A DNA stretch of 33,295 nt from positions 1 to 33,295 of the forward strand of contig JAAYPR010000019.1 of the NCBI GenBank assembly GCA_012519705.1, given 5' to 3'. The notes under the pieces were generated by a model that was given only the letters and a program-made list of their open reading frames with translations, did not search any database and was not told the origin of the DNA. Positions 603 to 25,402 of the stretch are shown piece after piece; position 1 is the stretch's first letter; each line of letters opens with the position of its first letter. A program made the translations under genes and the position numbers. Origin of the DNA: Campylobacteraceae bacterium (lineage in GTDB: Bacteria; Campylobacterota; Campylobacteria; Campylobacterales; Campylobacteraceae).

Positions 603-1274
603 ATGCTCATTATAAAATCAAGAGTTCCATCTAAAAACTTGCAAATTTACAAAGGACTTTCACAGCTAATTCAAGGCTTTTTATACTCAAACTTACCAGC
701 AAAAGAGCATGTAGGATACAGACATAGTAGTGGTAAAGTTTTTAGAAAAACGAACTTTTGTTTTAGCTATTTTGATGGAAATTTAGAGATAAAATTTACC
801 GCCTTGGAAAAAGAGCTAGAGGAGCAACTCGCTATAAATGTCCTAAAAAACGGTCTAAAATTAGGTGAAATTCATCTGCTTGACACGGCTATAAATTTGA
901 GCGAACATAGAACTGAAAAAACCGAAGCGAAACTAAAAGGCTACGCGGCTTGCAATGTAAAGGGCTTTTTAGATAAAAAGGTGTTTTTAGAGCCAATTGA
1001 CTCTAGGCATCTTGAGATTATGACAACAAATTTGCTTCAAAAATATGAAACGTTTTATGGCTCTTCTTATAACGGCGAGCTTGAGATAGAACTTTTGTGG
1101 CAGGACTTTGAGCGTTTCCGTAAGTTCTACTATGGAAATAACAAAAACTATATGAAAGCTTGGCTTGGAATTTGGAGCATGAAAGCTGACAACGAACTCA
1201 TAAATTTAGCTCTAAGCACAGGACTTGGAAGCGGGGTTATGAGCTATGGGTGTGGGTTTATGGAAGAGGTTTAA
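603..1274 (+). CDS. cas6: Cas6 CRISPR pre-crRNA endoribonuclease (type I-B)
   Basis: A 223-residue protein of the RAMP superfamily. Cas6 cuts the pre-crRNA within each repeat and leaves the 8-base 5' handle. The C-terminal glycine-rich loop typical of Cas6 is present at about 206-218 (GLGSGVMSYGCGF). A histidine at 41, in the stretch YRHSSGKVF, is in the usual region for the catalytic His. The length is normal for the family. The ribosome binding site is AAAAAAAGGTAG. The gene stops 74 bases before cas8b, and a strong promoter lies in that gap, so cas6 can be expressed separately from the effector genes. Confidence 0.9.
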   Translation: MLIIKSRVPSKNLQIYKGLSQLIQGFLYSNLPAKEHVGYRHSSGKVFRKTNFCFSYFDGNLEIKFTALEKELEEQLAINVLKNGLKLGEIHLLDTAINLSEHRTEKTEAKLKGYAACNVKGFLDKKVFLEPIDSRHLEIMTTNLLQKYETFYGSSYNGELEIELLWQDFERFRKFYYGNNKNYMKAWLGIWSMKADNELINLALSTGLGSGVMSYGCGFMEEV

Positions 1275-1293
1275 AATCTATTAATATAGCATT

Positions 1294-1322
1294 TTGACAA
1301 GGCAAAACTTTTTCGGTACAAT
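1294..1322 (+). promoter_or_regulatory. Sigma70 promoter of the cas8b-rarA operon
   Basis: TTGACA at 1294-1299 and TACAAT at 1317-1322 are separated by exactly 17 bases, which is a near-consensus sigma70 promoter. Transcription would start near 1329, about 20 bases before the cas8b ATG at 1349, and the ribosome binding site AGAGG lies in between. It is the best promoter in the CRISPR region and it separates cas6 from the Cascade genes. Confidence 0.8.
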
Positions 1323-1348
1323 TCAAAAATCACAAAAAGAGGTTAAAA

Positions 1349-2719
1349 ATGAGCTTGGCTAAAAAACTATACGACATCGGCAGCTTGGTAACTGATGATG
1401 AGTTTATAGAGCTATTAAAAGTTGATTTTAACCCAGCTGACTACGCCACTTTGTTCATAGACTTTACTATAAAAGATGGCAAAGCAGAGGCAAAACTTCA
1501 AAAATCATCACTTGACAATACAAAAACCCTTTTTACAAAAGCTATCGGCGGGCGTGGGCTAGGATATTACTATCTTTATCCAAATTTTAAATACGACAGT
1601 GAGAGCGACTTATATAAGAAATTTAAAAACTCTTTTCACACCTTTGAGAAATCCGTTCTAGTTTTTGGAGGTGAGAGAAATCACGACTTAATAAAGCCGG
1701 TTGTTGAGTATATAAAAAACTATAACCAAGATGAGCTAGGTTTAAAGAGCTTTGATAAAGGAAACTATCTTTTAGTTTTTGGAGTAAATGGCAAAACCAT
1801 AAGAGAGCTAATGCCTGAAATTAGTTCAAATTTCGCTAGTAATGCCGCATTTTTACACTCAGATTTGGAAGAAAAAGAAGCTATTGATTATATAAGTGGT
1901 AAAAAAGAGCTTTGTGGTTACAATCCAGACGTTAAATTTTTCACTTATGATAACTACCACAAGGGATTTAAACCTCAAATTTTAGACAAACTTCCACTCT
2001 CAAAACAGAGTGCCACTTGCATAAAAAAGGGCTGGATTTACACTATAAATAATCTTAGATTTTATCACAAAGGATTAGAGTATATCATCATCCCTTCACT
2101 TCTCAAATTTGATGAGGTTGCTTATAAAAAGATATTAAACGGCTTAAAAAGGATACAGCAAAGCACTAAAAACCTAGAGGAAAAGTCTATAAAAGAAGAT
2201 AGTTTCATAAGAAGGCTTGAGGCTCAAAGCGAGGGTTTAGTAGGCAATGCCTATCTTGATATCTACTTCACAGAGCTAAATTTAACAAATTTATCAGTTA
2301 GAATTTTTGGTTCGATGGAGGATCTGTTACCAAGCAAGATAAGAGAAGTTGGCTCTAAGATGATGAAGCAAAAAGTTTGTGACTACTACTTGGCAGAGAG
2401 AAAAAAAGAGGGATATTTGTGTTTGGGGGATTATTTTTCTAAAATAGAGCTTTTTACAAGCTTTACAAAAAGCTCTTTGCCAAACAAAGTTTTACAAGAA
2501 AAAATCTACCTAGCAAAACTATTTCTAGGCTATGAAAAGATAGAGCATAAAGAGCTTTTGGATAAATTTGAGCATTACAGAGAGTATGACTTTGAAAACA
2601 AGAAAAAACTAACCGATGAAGGCGTGAAAAACTGGATAGAGTATAGCGATAGTTTTGTGGAAAATGAAGATAGAACGCTTGAGTTTTTGGGTAGTATAAA
2701 TGCGATAAAAAGGAGTTAA
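1349..2719 (+). CDS. cas8b: Cas8b-like large subunit of type I-B Cascade (shortened)
   Basis: A 456-residue protein in the position of the Csh1/TM1802 large subunit, between cas6 and cas7 of Csh2 type. In type I-B the large subunit recognises the PAM and helps load Cas3. I assign it by position, length and general character (many Lys/Tyr/Phe, FGGERNHD and LVFGVNG stretches), not by a decisive motif. I see only isolated cysteines and no CxxC pairs, so the zinc finger of many Cas8b proteins appears absent. Together with the next gene (133 residues) it makes about 590 residues, which is about the size of one-piece TM1802 proteins. The large subunit and its C-terminal part therefore seem to be separate here. 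Confidence 0.8.
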   Translation: MSLAKKLYDIGSLVTDDEFIELLKVDFNPADYATLFIDFTIKDGKAEAKLQKSSLDNTKTLFTKAIGGRGLGYYYLYPNFKYDSESDLYKKFKNSFHTFEKSVLVFGGERNHDLIKPVVEYIKNYNQDELGLKSFDKGNYLLVFGVNGKTIRELMPEISSNFASNAAFLHSDLEEKEAIDYISGKKELCGYNPDVKFFTYDNYHKGFKPQILDKLPLSKQSATCIKKGWIYTINNLRFYHKGLEYIIIPSLLKFDEVAYKKILNGLKRIQQSTKNLEEKSIKEDSFIRRLEAQSEGLVGNAYLDIYFTELNLTNLSVRIFGSMEDLLPSKIREVGSKMMKQKVCDYYLAERKKEGYLCLGDYFSKIELFTSFTKSSLPNKVLQEKIYLAKLFLGYEKIEHKELLDKFEHYREYDFENKKKLTDEGVKNWIEYSDSFVENEDRTLEFLGSINAIKRS

Positions 2720-2720
2720 G

Positions 2721-3122
2721 ATGGAGCTTTTTTCAGAGCAGTTTGAAAAACTAGAGATAGATGAGAAGTTTAAATTTCCCTATTTGGTTGGGGCTTACTC
2801 AAAGGCAATTATTGATAGTTCGTATTTTTCTGACATTTCAAAGGAAAACACCACATTTAAAAAATGGATTTCAAACCAACAACTTATAAAGTCAAATTTG
2901 GTTAAAATTTTTAACAAAGCAAATGAGTTTGAGAGAAAACTTAGGCTTGATAGCGTTAGAAATAGTGACTTATCAGAGCTAGTAACTTCACATTTAGAAA
3001 CAAACTCAAACATAAGAAATAGCGAAGTTTCTTTTTATTTTATAAGAGGCTTTAATGATTATAGAAAATTTAAAAAAGAATTTCCAAGTAAAGAAGGAGA
3101 GAAAAATGACAGCAAAGCATAG
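2721..3122 (+). CDS. Separate small subunit (Cas11b-like), or split-off C-terminus of Cas8b
   Basis: A 133-residue protein, mostly helical in character. It starts one base after the cas8b stop, in another frame, with its own ribosome binding site (AAAAGGAG, five bases before ATG). Its end, around 103-117 (SEVSFYFIRGFNDYRKF), resembles the xxYFxxGY-type ending of one-piece Csh1/Cas8b proteins, and its start (FPYLVGAYSKAII) resembles the beginning of their C-terminal helical domain. In many I-B systems that domain is also made as Cas11b from an internal start. Here it appears to be a free-standing gene. The reading frame is closed upstream (TAA at 2706), so this is not a simple recent frameshift. 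It overlaps the cas7 start by 17 bases. Confidence 0.65.
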   Translation: MELFSEQFEKLEIDEKFKFPYLVGAYSKAIIDSSYFSDISKENTTFKKWISNQQLIKSNLVKIFNKANEFERKLRLDSVRNSDLSELVTSHLETNSNIRNSEVSFYFIRGFNDYRKFKKEFPSKEGEKNDSKA

Positions 3123-3972
3123 TGAGTTACTTTTTATCTGGGATGCCAAAATGACAAATCCAAACGGTGATATGTTAAACGACAACGCCCCAAGATACGA
3201 TGAAACCGATAGAAAAGCCGTAGTTAGCGATGTTAGAGTTAAAAGAACCATAAGAGATGATTTACAAAAGAGAAAAAACAAAGAAATTTTTGTAAACAAC
3301 CCTGAGATAGTCCAGTCCGCTGAGACAAGGTTTAAAGAGCTTCAAAAATCATCAAATTTAAAAGATGAAAGAGAGATTTTTTTAAGCTGTATAGACAACA
3401 GACTTTTTGGCGGAGTTGCCCCAAAGAGCAACATCCAAATCATCGGTTCAGTACAGTTTTCATGGGCGAAGTCGCTTAACCAAACTGAGACGATTTTAGG
3501 TCAAGGAGCAGGTGCTTTTGGAAAAGACGGAAGTGGCAACAAAACCTTTAGAACTGACAACTACCTTCCTTACGCACTTTTTGCGATGTATGGAACGATA
3601 AACTCACTAAGTGCAAAAGACTCAAAAGCAACCGAAGATGATGTAAAAGAGATGTTAGACTCTATGTGGAACGGCACAAAACTTCTAAACACAAGAAGTA
3701 AAATCGGACAAAAACCAAGAATGCTAATGAGAGTGATTTACACAGATACCTATATGATAGGTTTGCTTGATGAGCTAGTACATCTAAAAAACGAAAACTC
3801 AGATGAGATAAGAGAGCTTGGGGAGTGTGAAATTTGCTTTGCGAAACTTATAAAAGCTTTGAATTTAGCTGATAGTTTCATAGAAAAAATCGAAATTTAC
3901 TACGACATCAGCATGGAAGATAAAATCGCACCTTTAAAAGAGCTGAAAAAAGCTGAGCTAAAGGTTTTATAA
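3106..3972 (+). CDS. cas7: Cas7 (Csh2-type) backbone subunit of type I-B Cascade
   Basis: A 288-residue protein. Cas7 polymerises along the crRNA spacer. The N-terminus carries the characteristic Csh2 features: a first strand (SELLFIWDAKMTNPNGDM) followed by NAPRYDE and a conserved basic stretch, SDVRVKRTIRDDL. The middle contains FGGVAPKSN and GQGAGAFG, and the end has a short Lys/Glu tail. I chose the ATG at 3106, preceded by AAGAAGGAGAG, over the longer reading from 3055, whose extra residues only mirror the overlapping previous gene. The stop and the cas5b start share one base (TAATG), so the genes are translationally coupled. Confidence 0.93.
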   Translation: MTAKHSELLFIWDAKMTNPNGDMLNDNAPRYDETDRKAVVSDVRVKRTIRDDLQKRKNKEIFVNNPEIVQSAETRFKELQKSSNLKDEREIFLSCIDNRLFGGVAPKSNIQIIGSVQFSWAKSLNQTETILGQGAGAFGKDGSGNKTFRTDNYLPYALFAMYGTINSLSAKDSKATEDDVKEMLDSMWNGTKLLNTRSKIGQKPRMLMRVIYTDTYMIGLLDELVHLKNENSDEIRELGECEICFAKLIKALNLADSFIEKIEIYYDISMEDKIAPLKELKKAELKVL

Positions 3973-4712
3973 TGTTTGCTTTTAGAGTTTGGAGTAAATT
4001 TGGAGCTTTTAAAGACCCTTTTACCATTAGCCAAAACATAACTCTAAATTTCCCACCTAAAACGGCTATTTCTGGGATGATGGCAGCTATTTTAGGGGAG
4101 AGCGATTTTTTGGAAAAAGAGGAGTTTAGTAGCTTTGGTTACAGCGTTGTTATGGATGGCGAAATCATCAAAAAAAGCTTTTCTCAAAACTACATAAACG
4201 ACTACACAAACAAAACAAACTCGCATTTAGCTAGCCTTGCTAAGCTTGATTTTGAAAAGATAAGTGGCGGTTTTAGAGATACTAAAGCTCCACAAAAACC
4301 AACCAATAGAGAGCTTTTGATAAATCCAACATATACTATTTTTATAAAGGATTTTAAACTTGAAAATGAAATCATCCACAACCTAAAAAATAGACTTTTA
4401 AGATACAATATCTACATGGGAAATAGCGAATTTGCAGCAAATTTTAGCTATATAGAAGTTCTTGATAGCAATCTAAAGGAGTTTGACTATGTGGAGTTGG
4501 ACTCATTTTTAGAGCAGGATTTTGTCTCAAATTTGAAGTTTAAAGAAGGGATTTTTTATAAAAATGCCCTTATCCCAACGAGGCTTGATAAAAACCGCTC
4601 CCCAGTAAGTCAAACAAATCTAATCTACTCATCATCCAAAGTAGCGGTTAAAAGCATCTCAGCTTATGAGATAAAAACAGCTGATAGAACTTATCTTTGT
4701 AGGTTTGTATGA
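3972..4712 (+). CDS. cas5b: Cas5b subunit of type I-B Cascade
   Basis: A 246-residue RAMP protein. Cas5 binds the crRNA 5' handle and anchors the large subunit. The N-terminus reads FRVWSKFGAFKDP, followed by a Pro-rich turn and the helix PPKTAISGMMAAILG, which is the typical Cas5 signature. The protein ends with a strand pair rich in aromatic residues. It overlaps cas7 by one base and the next gene by four (ATGA). In most I-B operons cas3 would follow here. Instead the next gene is rarA, and no HD-nuclease/helicase is seen anywhere in the window. Confidence 0.9.
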   Translation: MFAFRVWSKFGAFKDPFTISQNITLNFPPKTAISGMMAAILGESDFLEKEEFSSFGYSVVMDGEIIKKSFSQNYINDYTNKTNSHLASLAKLDFEKISGGFRDTKAPQKPTNRELLINPTYTIFIKDFKLENEIIHNLKNRLLRYNIYMGNSEFAANFSYIEVLDSNLKEFDYVELDSFLEQDFVSNLKFKEGIFYKNALIPTRLDKNRSPVSQTNLIYSSSKVAVKSISAYEIKTADRTYLCRFV

Positions 4713-5994: not shown

Positions 5995-8478
5995 ATGGCA
6001 AGAGTAAAAAGAGTAGAACTAGGCGACAAATCTAACCAAACCACAAATTTTGTTGGCAGAGAAGAGCATCAAGAGCTGTTTTACAAAGCACTTAAAAACA
6101 TAAACGAAACAGAGCATAAAGTTCTTCATTTTTATGGAGTTGGTGGTATCGGTAAATCAAGCCTTCAAAGACGCCTTCAAGAACGCCTTAAAACAGAAAA
6201 AGAGAGTAAAAAAAGCGTTATATACACTCAGATTAATTTCGCTAACCAAGATGTAAGAAAGCCAGCCGAAGCGTTTAGAGTTATAGCTCAAAAATTTAGT
6301 AGTGAGTTTGGAGTGGATTTTAGATATTTCACACTTGCTTATATGATTTATCTTAAAAAAGCGGGAATGCCTATCGTAAAAGAAGCTTTGCCTTTTAAAT
6401 GTGAGACTATTGAAACTTTAAGTGGAATTTTAAATTTTATAGGTGGAGCTGTTGGAGGGCTTTTTCCTTTTGCTACAAAGGGTGTAGAGTATATCTTTAA
6501 AAAAGCAAACGATTTTTTTATAAACAAAAAGATAAAAACAGAATTGGCAAATTTAGGCGAACAAGATTTTAACGAGATAGAAAAAGAACTACCGAGATTT
6601 TTATATCACGATTTAAAAGCTTATAGAGATAAAAACCCAAACACAAAAATAGTTATATTTTTAGATACTTATGAAGCTTTATGGGAAAACGATAGAAAAG
6701 AAGCAAATGATTTAACAAAAGATGAGTGGATTAGAAATTTCATAGACCAAACCAAAAATGTACTTTTTATAACATCTGGTAGAGAAAAACTAAAATGGTT
6801 TGACGATGATAAGGCTTGGGAAAATGACTTAGAGCAGTGCCATATCGAAGGTTTTAGCAAGACTGAAGCTAAGTCTTTCCTTGTGTCTCGCGGGATAGAA
6901 GATGAAAACTTGCAAGATGCTATCTATGAAGGTAGTAGTGGGGTGCCGTTTTATCTTGAGCTTTGTGTGGAAATTTATAGAAGAGATAGCGGTGTAAAGG
7001 CTGAAGAGTTTTCATTAGGCAATGGCGATGAAAGAAAGCTTAGTGATTTGTTTTTAAAATACCTTAATGATAACGAAAACGCAACACTTGAAGCTCTATC
7101 TGTAGCGACATTTTTCAATGAAGATATTTTTAAGCTTCTTATTGGCAAACTAAACACAGGCTATCCAGCAACCAGATTTGATAGATTTACTCAGTTTTCT
7201 TTTATCAGTGAAGATAGTGGTAGGTATTTTATCCACAGCCTTATGAAAGAGACATTATCTAAAAAAGTAAAAAAAGATGATAAAAAAGATGTTATTGAAG
7301 TTTTATCTAAATATTACAACGAAAAACTAGAAAATTTAGATATGAAAAATTTACCTAGTGATATATCTACTATTTTAAACGAAGCGTTTAAGTATAAAAA
7401 AGAGCTTTTAGATTTTGACAAATTGAGTGAGTGGTTTTGGGGTATTTTTACTAAATTTAGCCAATATCGGCTAGATTTTATGCTTTTAGATATATCTTTA
7501 GAATTTGTAGATATACAAAAAGAAACCCTTGGAGAAAACCATTCAGATACAGCGGGTTTTTATAATAATATCGGAGTAATTCATTATAATTTGTGTAATT
7601 TTAAAGAGGCTTTAAAATATCATGAAAAAGCATTAAAGGCAAGAAGGGAAGCTCTTGGAGAAAATCACAAAGATTTAGTAGCTTCTTATGGCAATATCGG
7701 AAATGTTTATTATGGGTTAGGCGATTATAAAGAGGCTTTAAAATATCATGAAAAAGCATTAAATATACAAAAAGAAATCCTAGGAGAAAATAACAAAGAT
7801 ATAGCAACATATTATAATAATATTGGAGTGGTTTATTCTCATTTGGGCAATTACGAAGAGGCTTTGGGATATCATAAAAAAGCATTAAATATACAAAAAG
7901 AAACCATTGGAGAAAATCATCCAGATACAGCAATATCTTACAACAATATCGGGAATGTGTACTATATATTAAATAAACCAACAAGGGCTTTGCGATATTA
8001 TAAGAGAACGTTAAGCATAAGAAAAGAAACCATTGGAGAAAATCATCCAGATACAGCAATATCTTACAACAATATCGGAAATGTGTACTATAGTTTTAAT
8101 AGACTAAAAGAAGCTTTAAAATATCATGAAAAAGCATTAAAGGCAAGAAGAGAAACCATTGGAGAAAATCATCAAGACACAGCAAGCTCATATAATAATA
8201 TTGGAAATGTACACTATAATTCAGGCGACTTAGAAGAAGCTTTAAAATATTATGAAAAGGCATTAAGCATAAAAGAAAGAATCCTTGGAGAAAACCATCT
8301 AAACACAGCGAGCTCTTATAATAATATCGGATTTGTTTATTATGATTTAGGGAACTCAAGAAAGGCTTTAGAGTATTGTAGTAAAGCCTATGAAATATTT
8401 AAAGAAGCCCTTGGAGAAAACCACCCGCAAACACAAAAAGCATTAGAAGTTGTAAAGCTTATAAAGCAAAGAATCTAA
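5995..8478 (+). CDS. STAND-type P-loop NTPase with C-terminal TPR array
   Basis: An 827-residue protein. Residues 19-31 (FVGREEHQELF) and Walker A GVGGIGKSS at 48-56, followed by Walker B VIFLDTYE at about 219-226 and an ITSGRE sensor-like stretch near 260, mark an NB-ARC/STAND ATPase. Residues about 143-163 form a hydrophobic Gly-rich stretch inside the NTPase part. From about residue 505 there are seven full 42-residue TPR units of the kinesin-light-chain (TPR_12) kind, each with a GENHxDTAxSYNNIG motif, and a partial last unit. STAND proteins are switches that oligomerise when their repeats bind a trigger, and several are antiphage sensors. No separate N-terminal effector domain is visible, so its output is unknown. 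Its place behind a CRISPR locus suggests defence, by inference only. Confidence 0.85.
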   Translation: MARVKRVELGDKSNQTTNFVGREEHQELFYKALKNINETEHKVLHFYGVGGIGKSSLQRRLQERLKTEKESKKSVIYTQINFANQDVRKPAEAFRVIAQKFSSEFGVDFRYFTLAYMIYLKKAGMPIVKEALPFKCETIETLSGILNFIGGAVGGLFPFATKGVEYIFKKANDFFINKKIKTELANLGEQDFNEIEKELPRFLYHDLKAYRDKNPNTKIVIFLDTYEALWENDRKEANDLTKDEWIRNFIDQTKNVLFITSGREKLKWFDDDKAWENDLEQCHIEGFSKTEAKSFLVSRGIEDENLQDAIYEGSSGVPFYLELCVEIYRRDSGVKAEEFSLGNGDERKLSDLFLKYLNDNENATLEALSVATFFNEDIFKLLIGKLNTGYPATRFDRFTQFSFISEDSGRYFIHSLMKETLSKKVKKDDKKDVIEVLSKYYNEKLENLDMKNLPSDISTILNEAFKYKKELLDFDKLSEWFWGIFTKFSQYRLDFMLLDISLEFVDIQKETLGENHSDTAGFYNNIGVIHYNLCNFKEALKYHEKALKARREALGENHKDLVASYGNIGNVYYGLGDYKEALKYHEKALNIQKEILGENNKDIATYYNNIGVVYSHLGNYEEALGYHKKALNIQKETIGENHPDTAISYNNIGNVYYILNKPTRALRYYKRTLSIRKETIGENHPDTAISYNNIGNVYYSFNRLKEALKYHEKALKARRETIGENHQDTASSYNNIGNVHYNSGDLEEALKYYEKALSIKERILGENHLNTASSYNNIGFVYYDLGNSRKALEYCSKAYEIFKEALGENHPQTQKALEVVKLIKQRI
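7896..8092 (+). repeat. Near-identical tandem TPR units at DNA level (126-base period)
   Basis: A run of 57 bases starting at 7896 is repeated exactly at 8022, and the match continues beyond a single mismatch (7953 against 8079). The offset is 126 bases, that is one 42-residue TPR unit. Neighbouring units are also clearly related in DNA. Such identity suggests recent duplication or gene conversion and allows change of copy number. Confidence 0.85.
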
Positions 8479-18170: not shown

Positions 18171-18176
18171 TATAAT
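18171..18176 (+). promoter_or_regulatory. -10 box (TATAAT) reading into the tRNA-like array
   Basis: The context TTTTTGATATAAT is the same form as the rpmI promoter. Transcription would begin near 18183, which is exactly where the outer stem of the first folded unit begins. No open reading frame with a ribosome binding site follows until 18604. Confidence 0.65.
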
Positions 18177-18182
18177 TTTACG

Positions 18183-18269
18183 AAATATTAAGTAGTCATG
18201 TAGCGAGCGTGGTAAAGCTAGCAGATTAAAGTTTGCGTATATTGTTCGAGTCTGAACTATTTAATGTTT
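18183..18269 (+). ncRNA. tRNA-like unit 1 (degenerate)
   Basis: The ends pair over 13 positions with two wobbles (18183-18195 with 18257-18269). Inside lie a D-arm-like hairpin (TAGC 18201-18204 with GCTA 18217-18220, loop containing GTGGTAAA), an anticodon-arm-like stem (GCAGA 18221-18225 with TTTGC 18232-18236) with a six-base loop, and a TTCGAGT T-loop-like sequence at 18245-18251 whose stem is poor. It is laid out like a tRNA but breaks several rules, so it is a decayed tRNA or a relative of one. Confidence 0.45.
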
Positions 18270-18272
18270 TGG

Positions 18273-18362
18273 GATGAGATAATTGATGGCGGTAATGTAG
18301 TAGTTCGAACACTCCTTTTTTAGAGCGGGTATTGTGTGTGCAAGCCCCGCCGCTATCTTATC
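18273..18362 (+). ncRNA. Folded RNA unit 2
   Basis: The ends pair over nine positions with one wobble (18273-18281 with 18354-18362). Inside, GGCGG (18288-18292) can pair with CCGCC (18347-18351), but GCGGG (18325-18329) can pair with almost the same bases (18346-18350), so two folds exclude each other. A GTTCGAAC palindrome lies at 18303-18310. Its spacing matches the other units of the array, but I see no clear T-arm. Confidence 0.35.
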
Positions 18363-18381
18363 TTTTATTTAATGTTTTTTT

Positions 18382-18470
18382 GGGGCGAAGATTGCTAAGT
18401 CTTTATGGCAGGTAACAGCGTGAGGCAGAAATGTCGGCTTATGTTGTGGGTTCAAATCCCACCCGTCCCA
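18382..18470 (+). ncRNA. tRNA-like unit 3 with perfect T-arm and GAAA-capped arm
   Basis: Acceptor-like stem 18382-18387 with 18464-18469 (six pairs, one wobble) and an A-C mismatch at the seventh position. Linker AG. D-arm-like TTGC (18392-18395) with GCAG (18408-18411). Shared block GCAGGTAAC at 18408-18416. Arm AACA (18414-18417) with TGTT (18442-18445) capped by GGCA-GAAA-TGTC at 18424-18435 in place of an anticodon loop. Perfect T-arm GTGGG-TTCAAAT-CCCAC at 18446-18462. Length 89. No CCA is encoded. It shares this architecture with unit 4, so it is not a normal tRNA. Confidence 0.55.
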
Positions 18471-18488
18471 GCTGATTAAATTTAGCAG

Positions 18489-18574
18489 GGCAAATGTGAA
18501 GATGTGAAGCTTTAAGCAGGTAACCACAGAATGAAAATTCAATGTTGCAGGTTCAAATCCTGCCCACATTTGCC
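18489..18574 (+). ncRNA. tRNA-like unit 4 with perfect T-arm and GAAA-capped arm
   Basis: A ten-pair perfect outer stem (18489-18498 with 18565-18574). The same A-C mismatch (18499 with 18564) and AG linker follow as in unit 3. A weak D-arm, the shared block GCAGGTAAC at 18516-18524, an arm ending in GAAT-GAAA-ATTC at 18529-18540, and a perfect T-arm GCAGG-TTCAAAT-CCTGC at 18547-18563 complete it. The stem sequences differ from unit 3 but pairing is kept, which speaks for selection on structure. No CCA is encoded. It ends 29 bases before the next gene. Confidence 0.55.
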
Positions 18575-18603
18575 TCAGTTTTAGCTACCACAAGGGAAAT
18601 AAA

Positions 18604-18912
18604 ATGAAAGATTTGGAGCGAAGAAGAAAAGATGTTAAATATGGGGCAGATAATTTTTTAACCTTGTTTTTTATTTTTACTCTCGGATTTATTTTTCTAT
18701 TGTTTGTCTCTGATGAGGAATTATCTTTTTTAACTGTCCTTGCTTATATTTTAGGAGCACCTTTTGTGGTGCTAATTTTACTTCCTGTTATAGTTTCACT
18801 AGGTATGATTCTTACTTGGTTGTTTAGCAAGCTTTGCAAACCTGTCTATATGTTTATAGTTGATATATTTGTCGGAATGAAAATGTATGATGAGAAATTT
18901 TCAGATAAATAG
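18604..18912 (+). CDS. Small membrane protein, function unknown
   Basis: A 102-residue protein with a charged start (MKDLERRRKDVKYG) and two or three hydrophobic stretches, about 20-36, 42-72 and 78-92. I do not recognise a family. The ribosome binding site AAGGGAAATAAA precedes the ATG. It lies 29 bases after the last tRNA-like unit with no terminator between them, so it can share the transcript from 18171. The next gene also encodes a small membrane protein of similar character, which suggests related function or ancient duplication. Confidence 0.65.
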   Translation: MKDLERRRKDVKYGADNFLTLFFIFTLGFIFLLFVSDEELSFLTVLAYILGAPFVVLILLPVIVSLGMILTWLFSKLCKPVYMFIVDIFVGMKMYDEKFSDK

Positions 18913-18957: not shown

Positions 18958-19203
18958 ATGAAAAAAGAATTTATGAAATTTATCACTAGTGATATGGGGT
19001 TTTTGTTCTTAACATATGTTGGGATTGTTATTTTTTTACTATTAAACTCATTTGAGTCTTTTGGTGTCTTTGAGTTTATTGCTGCTTCGATGTTTGCTGT
19101 GTTTTTAATGCCTTTTGCTATGCCTTTTACGGCTATAGTCTATTTTATCCTTGAAACTATTTTTGGCGAAAAAGTAAGAAAATACCTTAAAAGTCTTAAG
19201 TAA
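18958..19203 (+). CDS. Small membrane protein, function unknown
   Basis: An 81-residue protein with hydrophobic stretches at about 14-30 and 38-66, a short charged start (MKKEFMKFITSD) and a basic end (KVRKYLKSLK). The layout resembles the preceding 102-residue protein, particularly the central Phe/Leu/Pro-rich double membrane segment, but I cannot show homology by eye. It begins 45 bases behind that gene, with a weak site (GGGAGAC) before the ATG. Confidence 0.6.
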   Translation: MKKEFMKFITSDMGFLFLTYVGIVIFLLLNSFESFGVFEFIAASMFAVFLMPFAMPFTAIVYFILETIFGEKVRKYLKSLK

Positions 19204-23601: not shown

Positions 23602-24201
23602 ATGGGAAATTTGTATAAATTTTTGGCTGGACTGGTAGTAGTTTTTGTTATTTTTGCTATTTCTTTTATGACAAGTTACAATAAAATTCCAACTCTTGAT
23701 GAAAATGTAGTAGCAAAATGGTCGCAAGTTGAAAACCAGTATAAAAGGCGTGCAGATTTAGTACCAAATTTAGTTAGCGTGGTTCAGGGCTATGCAAAGC
23801 ATGAAAAAACTACGTTAAATGAGGTAGTTGAAGCAAGAAGTAAGGCGATATCTATAAAAGTAGATGCCCAGTCTTTGAGTAATCCTGAAGCGATTAAAGC
23901 GTATAGTGAAGCTCAAGGTGCGTTAGGTTCGGCACTATCAAGACTTATAATGCTAACTGAGAACTATCCTGAACTTAAAGCAAATGAGAATTTTTTAGAG
24001 CTTCAATCACAACTTGAAGGCACAGAAAACCGAATCGCAGTTGCAAGAAAAGACTACATTGAGGCGACAAAAGAGTTCAATCTCGCCCTTAGAACTATAC
24101 CGACAAAATTTATCGCTAAAATGTTTTTCCCAGATTTGAAGCCAAAAGAGCCATTTAGCGTAACAGCTGAAGAAAAAGCAGTGCCGAAAGTTGAGTTTTG
24201 A
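23602..24201 (+). CDS. lemA: LemA family protein
   Basis: A 199-residue protein with an N-terminal membrane helix (about 7-24) and the LemA core: YNKIPTLDENVVAKWSQVEN, then QYKRRADLVPNLVSVVQGYA with the family-typical RRxDLxPNL, and a long helical bundle with ENRIAVARKDYIEATKEFN. The family is membrane-anchored with a largely helical external part. Its function is not firmly known, but it often sits next to TPM-domain genes, as here. The ribosome binding site AAAAAGGTAAATGAT precedes the ATG. Confidence 0.94.
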   Translation: MGNLYKFLAGLVVVFVIFAISFMTSYNKIPTLDENVVAKWSQVENQYKRRADLVPNLVSVVQGYAKHEKTTLNEVVEARSKAISIKVDAQSLSNPEAIKAYSEAQGALGSALSRLIMLTENYPELKANENFLELQSQLEGTENRIAVARKDYIEATKEFNLALRTIPTKFIAKMFFPDLKPKEPFSVTAEEKAVPKVEF

Positions 24202-24659
24202 AATACCTAACGCAAACTCAAAAAGATGAAATTTTAGAGTTAATTAGGCTTGTAGAAAGCAGGAGTAGTGCTGAACTCGTTGCGGTTGTGGCTAAGCAGA
24301 GTTTGCTTTTTTATAGACTCTATCCTGCAAGTCTTAGAAAAAAGCTATTAAGAAATAGAGCGAAAAAACTCTTTTTAAATCACAGGCTTGATAAGACTGA
24401 AAATAGGCTTGGAGTTATGTTTTTTGTAAGCATAGCTGAGCGTCAGGTGGAGATAGTTGCAGATATTGGGATTGGCACAAAAATTTCAGATGCTTTTTGG
24501 CAAGATATTGCTAATGAGTTTATAGAGTTTGTAAAGCGTGATGAGTTTGGAGCTGGCTTAAAGTATGCGATTAGCAAAAGCTTGGCAATGCTAACCCAGA
24601 AATTTCCTATCAGCGATAGTGATAAGAATGAACTAAGTGATGAGGTAGTTGAGATTTGA
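24198..24659 (+). CDS. TPM-domain protein, short form
   Basis: A 153-residue protein of the TPM (YgcG-like) domain family: QTQKDEILELIRLVESRSSAE at the start, then RLGVMFFVSIAERQVEIVAD with the family-typical IxxxxRxVxIxAD, and GIGTKISDAFWQDI. It has no signal peptide and only a mildly hydrophobic stretch near 34-46. The start is TTG at 24198 within the lemA stop (TTGA), so it depends on coupling. It lies between lemA and a second, exported TPM protein. Confidence 0.88.
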   Translation: MKYLTQTQKDEILELIRLVESRSSAELVAVVAKQSLLFYRLYPASLRKKLLRNRAKKLFLNHRLDKTENRLGVMFFVSIAERQVEIVADIGIGTKISDAFWQDIANEFIEFVKRDEFGAGLKYAISKSLAMLTQKFPISDSDKNELSDEVVEI

Positions 24660-25402
24660 AAAAGTTGATTTTATGGGCGGTTTTTGCTACTTTTTTGGTT
24701 GCTGGGATAGCTTATCCAAATTTAAGTGGTAGGGTTGTTGATGAGGCTGGAATTTTACCCAGTAAGACATACTCGGAGCTAACAGCAAAAATTTCACTAT
24801 ATGAACAAAACTCTACAAATCAATTTGTCGTTGTAACGCTTAAATCCTTGCAAGGAATGAGTATAGATGAGTATAGTTTAAACCTTGCAAGAAAGTGGGA
24901 AATAGGGCAAAAAGGTAGTGATAATGGTGTTTTGCTCGTTGTCGCACCAAATGAAAGAAAAGTTAGAATTGAGGTTGGATACGGACTAGAAGGCAAACTA
25001 ACTGACGCAAGAGCAAGTAAAATCATAAACAGCGTTATAATTCCAGAGTTTAAAGATGGAAATTTTGCAAAAGGCATACAAAACGGGGCGGACGAAATTC
25101 TAGTCATTATAAACTCTGATGAGGAGTTTTTAAAAGCTGAAGATGAAAAAGAGGCTTTAGTTACTGTAATTCTTGGGCTACTTTTTTTGATTTTTTCATA
25201 CTATTTGTATAGAAAATTTAGAGAGATAATAGCCGATATTGACTTTGAAACCGATACTTATAGGTATAGCGGAAGTTCTGGAAATAGCAGTTCTAGAAGT
25301 AGTAGTTATGAGAGCAGAAGCTATGGAAGCAGTAGCTCTAGGAGTAGTTTTCGCGGTGGCGGGGGTAGTTTTGGTGGAGGCGGTGCTAGTGGGAGTTGGT
25401 AG
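24656..25402 (+). CDS. TPM-domain membrane protein with Gly/Ser-rich tail (YgcG-like)
   Basis: A 248-residue protein: signal peptide or anchor at 1-18, TPM domain at about 22-155 (VVDEAGILPSKTYSELTAKI, then KGSDNGVLLVVAPNERKVRI and VGYGLEGKLTDARASKII), a membrane helix at about 168-185, and a C-terminal tail made almost only of Ser, Gly, Arg and Tyr, ending FGGGGASGSW. This end is typical of YgcG-like proteins. The start is TTG, again inside the previous stop (TTGA). It completes the lemA-TPM-TPM set. Confidence 0.9.
   Translation: MKKLILWAVFATFLVAGIAYPNLSGRVVDEAGILPSKTYSELTAKISLYEQNSTNQFVVVTLKSLQGMSIDEYSLNLARKWEIGQKGSDNGVLLVVAPNERKVRIEVGYGLEGKLTDARASKIINSVIIPEFKDGNFAKGIQNGADEILVIINSDEEFLKAEDEKEALVTVILGLLFLIFSYYLYRKFREIIADIDFETDTYRYSGSSGNSSSRSSSYESRSYGSSSSRSSFRGGGGSFGGGGASGSW

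Follow-up and report, generated by a model that had tools for sequence, protein, structure and literature searches.

Introduction

The MuF polymorphic toxins of temperate phages combine a MuF N-terminal domain (PF04233) with a variable C-terminal domain (Jamet 2017, PMC5576092; Iyer 2017, PMC5512222). They are thought to be loaded into the phage head, and an immunity element should follow immediately downstream (PMC5576092). In Proteobacteria, the C-terminal domain of many MuF proteins has no known role, and no immunity gene has been recognised for them (PMC5576092); Iyer et al. considered mRNA or CRISPR RNA the more likely target (PMC5512222). In the literature consulted here, immunity to polymorphic toxins is described as protein-based. 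The same applies to the CDI tRNase toxins of the BECR fold (CdiA-CT Kp342, EC3006; PMC9086364), whose cognate immunity factor is the protein CdiI. CdiA-CT Kp342 is an anticodon tRNase that cuts the anticodon loop of one tRNA (PMC9086364). Structured RNAs adjoin, and directly inhibit, protein toxins in the type III toxin-antitoxin systems (ToxIN, CptIN, AvcID), where tandem repeats of one RNA lie upstream of a toxN-like gene within one operon.

Here we analyse a small-RNA array in a 33,295-nucleotide stretch of DNA from a Campylobacteraceae bacterium (contig JAAYPR010000019.1), referred to below as the window. Sequence comparison places its units in a new RNA family with a tRNA-like elbow and without an anticodon arm. 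The family is tied to the MuF toxin genes of Mu-like phages, and this tie suggests a function. The phage loci resemble the described MuF systems in the PF04233 N-domain, the variable C-terminal domain, a directly downstream element as the would-be immunity factor, and displaced toxin fragments. However, the downstream element is an antisense-encoded structured RNA rather than a small immunity-protein ORF. With type III systems they share the structured RNA next to a protein toxin, which we propose here to inhibit by binding. In contrast to the type III layout, the RNA is tRNA-like, lies downstream and antisense with its own promoter-like box, and is usually single, or one of a few different RNAs in a short array; the domain predicted to be the toxin is BECR-like and belongs to a phage head protein. 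The CDI toxins provide the top structural neighbour of that domain and a precedent for a delivered tRNase with cognate immunity, but there the immunity factor is a protein and delivery is by CDI, not by phage. A literature search, incomplete in its coverage, turned up no pairing of a tRNA-like RNA with a MuF toxin or another polymorphic toxin.

Four RNA units in the window

The array consists of four units on the forward strand (18184-18268, 18273-18362, 18380-18471 and 18488-18575), with the following features.

18171-18176, + strand: TATAAT, the one promoter-like -10 box ahead of the array, predicted from sequence
18184-18268, + strand: unit 1, tRNA-like RNA, read from the sequence; 12-bp terminal stem (18185-18196/18256-18267) and a D-loop with GGTAA
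18273-18362, + strand: unit 2, type B RNA, by the type B pattern and relatives in phages
18380-18471, + strand: unit 3, type A RNA, 82.8 bits with covariance model R1, which was built including unit 3
18380-18387/18464-18471, + strand: unit 3 terminal stem, TTGGGGCG/CGTCCCAG, 8 bp
18393-18396/18417-18420, + strand: unit 3 D-like stem, from the sequence
18408-18416, + strand: unit 3 D-loop block GCAGGTAAC with the tRNA-like G18 G19, from the sequence
18424-18435, + strand: unit 3 third arm GGCA-GAAA-TGTC at the anticodon-arm position, from the sequence
18446-18462, + strand: unit 3 T-arm GTGGG-TTCAAAT-CCCAC, by descriptor and covariation in relatives
18488-18575, + strand: unit 4, type A RNA, 94.5 bits with R1
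18488-18498/18565-18575, + strand: unit 4 terminal stem, 11 bp
18503-18506/18525-18528, + strand: unit 4 D-like stem, from the sequence
18516-18524, + strand: unit 4 D-loop block GCAGGTAAC, from the sequence
18529-18540, + strand: unit 4 third arm GAAT-GAAA-ATTC, from the sequence
18547-18563, + strand: unit 4 T-arm GCAGG-TTCAAAT-CCTGC, by descriptor and covariation in relatives

Unit 1, with a shortened T-arm, is probably decayed; it gave no match to R1. Unit 2 has the linker TTGATG, the D-loop AATGTAGTA, the T-loop TGCAAGC and the terminal stem GATGAGATA/TATCTTATC; there is one mismatch within its T-stem, and it looks partly decayed. The nearest relatives of unit 4 are prophage RNAs in two genomes (G008 and G001), with 88% identity over 72-90 nt.

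Two small membrane proteins, possibly phage remnants, are encoded immediately 3' of the array (18604-18912 and 18958-19203), and a similar-looking small membrane protein is found in a prophage region of genome G005 (L007, 7413-7733). LemA/TPM genes (23602-25402) lie 5 kb away from the array. Upstream, the window holds a CRISPR-cas-like cluster of type I with Cas6/Cas7/Cas5-like ORFs, judged by eye (603-4712), and a gene (5995-8478, adjoining thrS) whose 827-aa product combines an NTPase-like N-part with many near-identical TPR repeats.

Fold and covariation

A preliminary description of units 3 and 4 had listed their stems, tetraloops and shared blocks, all of which we recovered in place. Some details require revision. 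The unit 3 terminal stem pairs as described, but it is two pairs longer than was reported. The A-C mismatch at the inner end of the acceptor-like stem holds for type A only; the family-wide feature is a single unpaired C between the T-stem and the terminal stem (26 of 32 RNAs), with A opposite in 11 RNAs and T in 15. The GAAA-capped third arm is present in both units and common in type A, but it is not universal. A tetraloop in place of the anticodon loop, as had been suggested, agrees with the tRNA-like D- and T-arms and the short closed arm at the anticodon-arm position.

Energy folding takes unit 4 directly into a cloverleaf and leaves units 1-3 undecided. The cloverleaf of unit 3 has -21.5 kcal/mol, compared with -32.4 kcal/mol for the lowest-energy fold, which is not a cloverleaf. 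The case for the cloverleaf therefore rests on covariation, not on energy.

Relatives were added to units 3 and 4 because two sequences alone prove little. A blastn search of 60 related genomes gave three same-genus matches, all of them within Mu-like prophages, where they lie at the MuF (gp30) gene's 3' end, antisense to the late genes. Further members were gathered with R1 and with DNA patterns. The covariance-model search that had been proposed as a check thus finds members outside this locus, with covarying stems, and the earlier idea of a conserved RNA family is upheld.

The members fall into two types. Type A (units 3 and 4) has the D-loop GGTAAC, a hairpin inside the D-loop and the T-loop UUCAAAU, while type B (unit 2) has TTGATG, the D-loop AAYGNAGTA and the T-loop UGCAACU. 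One RNA (L183) is near-canonical, a textbook cloverleaf with the closed anticodon arm CCAC-TTA-GTGG. In the six type A sequences, 96.7% of cells pair and 12 of 20 pairs have changed on both sides; the covariation score is 0.677 against 0.271 after shuffling, and none of 500 shuffles reached the observed score. Type B (14 sequences) gives 92% paired cells, 17 of 22 pairs changed on both sides, and a score of 0.69 against 0.27 shuffled (0/500), falling to 0.19 or less when slid. Across 32 distinct RNAs, each of the six inner terminal-stem pairs takes 4-5 standard pair types. Terminal-stem strands dealt at random pair in 49% of cases, whereas the observed 100% is partly the result of selection.

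At one position of type B, U-G pairs are preserved in 13 of 14 sequences, showing which strand is the RNA. A -10-like box stands upstream of the terminal stem in 27 of 32 RNAs, mostly 4-9 nt away, so that the RNA probably begins at the terminal stem.

The D-loop and the T-loop are also coupled. Position 55 of the T-loop is G with D-loop AG in 18/18 RNAs and U with D-loop GG in 14/16 (Fisher p 9e-8); GG occurs with UUC and AG with UGC. A tRNA elbow requires this coupling.

Several candidates were discarded. Most matches of the first viral pattern were true tRNAs, and most of the 120 matches of a short type B pattern lay outside the family. R1 matches of about 20 bits in the genus were tRNA-Trp and tRNA-Ser, except for elements at five loci (L038, L039, L046, L048 and L049). 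In phage records, blastn returned short tRNA matches only. Elsewhere (L171, 9783-9976), RNAs of the two types, B and A, follow one another head to tail, only 2 nt apart.

Position beside MuF genes

Mu-like phages of Campylobacter and Helicobacter carry the RNA in antisense orientation at the end of the MuF head-protein gene. We compared 45 loci with the MuF C-terminal domain: 34 IMG/VR loci, retrieved by protein similarity to the domain alone, together with loci from genus genomes, named genomes (C. jejuni 414, C. volucris, C. portucalensis and Campylobacter sp. US33a) and phage records (CAM-P21 and a Helicobacter apodemus prophage). An antisense RNA ending -15 to 0 nt from the stop codon, and so overlapping the MuF stop by up to 15 nt, was found at 44 of these loci, which are related and do not represent 45 independent events. 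This count was made with a looser descriptor, and the background of about 3e-5 per strand-base elsewhere, true tRNAs included, belongs to the strict descriptor only. At the exception (L205), a shortened RNA copy stands at the MuF stop and an intact copy 1.1 kb further on, adjoining a possible toxin-end fragment (E only 0.6).

In the genus census, the RNA accompanies all five MuF loci that have the domain and none of the four MuF genes with unrelated C-termini; it is also present at the G009 MuF gene, which has a distant, similar-looking C-terminus. The MuF N-terminal domain PF04233 scores over its cut-off in intact and shortened phage proteins (E 1.9e-13 to 3.9e-26). The downstream gene varies (gpG or a P2-like tail gene), and the RNA stays. 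A C. jejuni dRNA-seq study mapped numerous start sites in prophages, but these RNAs are not named in its main text (PMC3656092). At one locus (L006, 3815-4453, - strand), the predicted gpG start reads MGFEPTTSNFSF, the translated antisense of the tRNA-like RNA, so gene callers mis-start there.

A predicted tRNase domain

The C-terminal domain, about 170 residues long, is common to the MuF proteins of all these phages. Its structure model has a pLDDT of 92 and a pTM of 0.88. In BFVD it matches phage nucleases and MuF C-terminal-domain proteins (E 8e-4 for the latter). Alignment against the PDB with VIA-align places BECR/RelE-type RNases in the first rows, namely CdiA-CT Kp342, HigB2, MqsR and a Serratia CDI toxin, with weak Z values (4.2 for the top row, CdiA-CT Kp342, 6cp9; 2.4 for the Serratia toxin). 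Foldseek gave nothing significant against the PDB (none under 0.001), and sequence profiles matched no solved structure. Among Pfam families, PBECR3 (E 0.0024) and MuF_C (E 0.011) were the matches, both below their curated cut-offs. The domain has an invariant His and a nearly invariant Thr, which fits the PBECR layout (PMC5512222).

The model resembles MuF-C/BECR-fold RNase toxins, and the domain is a probable tRNA-cutting toxin in the phage head. That the RNA mimics the body of a tRNA is no proof that the domain targets tRNA.

Co-inheritance of RNA and domain, and orphan arrays

Over 35 distinct loci, RNA similarity tracks the C-terminal domain when MuF-N is given (partial Mantel r 0.69, p 0.0003) and does not track MuF-N when the domain is given (r -0.10, p 0.98). 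At three loci (L007, L006 and L233), a second RNA stands beside a short remnant of another toxin end; the remnants in G005 and G001 agree in type with their RNAs. In a Helicobacter cinaedi prophage, such an RNA is found at the 3' end of a non-MuF-like (non-Mu) protein that ends in the domain. This locus (L245, BK070062) carries the tRNA-like RNA at 2778-2866, next to a jhp1044-like polyvalent protein ending in the MuF-type domain, and a second structured candidate (CAAGAGT..ACTCTTG) further downstream.

The genome of the window (G000) has neither PF04233 MuF nor the C-terminal domain, and no remnant of the domain was found next to the array. A second genome, G012, contains at least three intact RNAs and the start of a fourth at a contig end, again without MuF or the domain; its array (L232, contig C28, 12540-13183) adjoins LemA/TPM-domain genes. 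By these searches, two Campylobacter genomes carry orphan arrays without a MuF toxin domain, and the array in the window looks like an antidote stock in a bacterium without such a toxin.

Proposed role and alternatives

The RNA stands almost always against the end of a probable tRNase-toxin gene and therefore probably acts as an RNA antidote. An immunity element is expected directly downstream of a MuF toxin, and the RNA holds that place, which supports this reading. As the likely and simplest explanation, we propose a toxin with its antidote, in which units 1-4 form an orphan array of immunity (antitoxin) RNAs that mimic tRNA, and the phage RNAs are partners of the MuF domain, bound as uncleavable substrate mimics. 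The proposal joins features that can be read from the sequences: an RNA family with covarying stems and an elbow, its adjacency to and co-inheritance with the domain, the toxin-end fragments and the orphan arrays.

The MuF C-terminal domain, a predicted BECR-fold RNase, would presumably be a tRNase injected with the phage DNA, and it would be toxic through tRNA cleavage. The RNA would be expressed from its own promoter, start at the terminal stem and fold into an elbow that lacks an anticodon loop. Bound in the active site of a tRNase of this fold, the RNA would offer nothing to cut and would inhibit the enzyme. Such an RNA could rescue cells from the toxin, protecting the lysogen and its siblings while phage is produced. 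The toxin domain and the RNA would be swapped as one cassette, with old toxin ends remaining as fragments beside their RNA, and toxin-free hosts would retain RNA arrays as protection from incoming phage.

Adjacency and co-inheritance fit any tight protein-RNA partnership, and RNA binding was suggested by Iyer et al. for the inactive MuF-C of phage Mu (PMC5512222). The RNA could then work together with the MuF C-terminal domain, as its guide, cofactor or structural RNA and not as its antidote, being bound by it, packaged in the head and co-delivered. We consider this unlikely. Arrays in genomes without MuF or the domain, and RNAs beside toxin-end fragments, are expected for immunity, but they would be pointless for a virion part.

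It is less probable still that the RNAs are host-takeover or anti-defence decoys, directed at anticodon nucleases or at tRNA-modifying or processing enzymes such as RNase P or the CCA-adding enzyme and unrelated to MuF activity. A phage-borne RNA with a tRNA-like elbow, no anticodon and its own promoter-like box would suit such a decoy. However, a free decoy could sit anywhere, whereas this RNA follows one domain, even into a non-Mu protein, and its sequence tracks that of the domain.

The constant antisense position at a gene junction, with the overlap of up to 15 nt at the MuF stop, could also indicate an antisense or processing element regulating the late operon (a terminator, mRNA cleavage, or antisense control of MuF/gpG). 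This appears very improbable: two types and several folds occur at the same junction, the downstream gene varies, and the orphan arrays adjoin no late operon. Moreover, the preserved U-G pairs and the -10 boxes put the function in the RNA itself. Both the orphan arrays and the RNAs kept beside dead toxin ends are predicted by immunity; a structural RNA of the virion or a regulator of the operon would predict neither.

A cognate tRNA-mimic RNA would fill the immunity-gene gap of the MuF toxins and point to tRNA as the target. If this is true, the RNAs would be a new kind of RNA antitoxin, and orphan RNA arrays would be explained as anti-phage defence.

Comparison with tRNA and Y RNAs

The family shares with tRNA (RF00005) a cloverleaf-like layout, the T-loop UUCRANY, the D-loop GG and the D-loop/T-loop elbow. 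It differs in having no anticodon loop, no CCA, a terminal stem of 7-16 bp in RNAs of 80-105 nt, and an extra unpaired C; in place of the anticodon stem with its 7-nt loop, units 3 and 4 and their relatives have a hairpin that is short and closed. The units have no match in Rfam at gathering score, and ARAGORN finds no tRNA.

YrlA-type Y RNAs likewise mimic tRNA. They have in common with this family a tRNA-like module with D and T loops forming an elbow, a long closing stem and the lack of an anticodon arm, but the family described here is tied to MuF toxin domains, not to Ro60/Rsr. A locus in IMG/VR with a Ro60-like vWA/DUF2828 protein (L014) was set aside as support for a Y RNA because its element turned out to be a regular tRNA (47 bits) whose variable arm is long.

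Least probable of all, and hardly tenable, is that the RNAs are genuine tRNAs, decayed or unusual, or else YrlA-type bacterial Y RNAs: units 3 and 4 do reach 17.4 and 17.2 bits with the Rfam tRNA model (threshold 29), but the RNAs show compensatory change rather than decay, with no anticodon loop or encoded CCA and a terminal stem of up to 16 bp, and Y RNA identity is rejected by the absence of Ro60/TROVE (PF05731) from the genome of the window and of any DUF2828 match over the cut-off in the prophage-bearing genomes, where that model gave one match below it.

RNAs beside other MuF domains

With moderate confidence, we extend the immunity proposal to a more general one. Phages may use structured RNAs as immunity for head-carried toxins, here a tRNA mimic without an anticodon that travels as an exchangeable cassette and blocks a tRNase, and bacteria may collect arrays of such RNAs as defence. 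In Helicobacter and Pasteurellaceae phages, differently folded RNAs accompany other MuF domains at the same place, which suggests that immunity through RNA may extend to this toxin class as a whole.

Mu-like prophages of Helicobacter whose MuF has another C-terminal domain carry, in the same place, antisense structured-looking RNAs of another fold (L219, BK070140, 2643-2833; L220, BK070135, 2634-3097; L227, BK070150, 2640-2796), which possibly mimic another RNA target. At L220, three such RNAs stand in tandem, with the core CTAATGG..GAAGTAACGATA.

In Pasteurellaceae Mu-like phages, antisense RNAs with covarying terminal stems are found immediately after MuF: in SuMu (L223, NC_019455) after 2760, in Mannheimia phage 3927AP2 (L246) at 2811-2962, and in Pasteurella phage AFS-2018a (L226) at 2757-2882. 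The SuMu and Mannheimia phage RNAs have the GATAATCTC loop in common, and the AFS-2018a RNA has a TTCGAAT T-loop.
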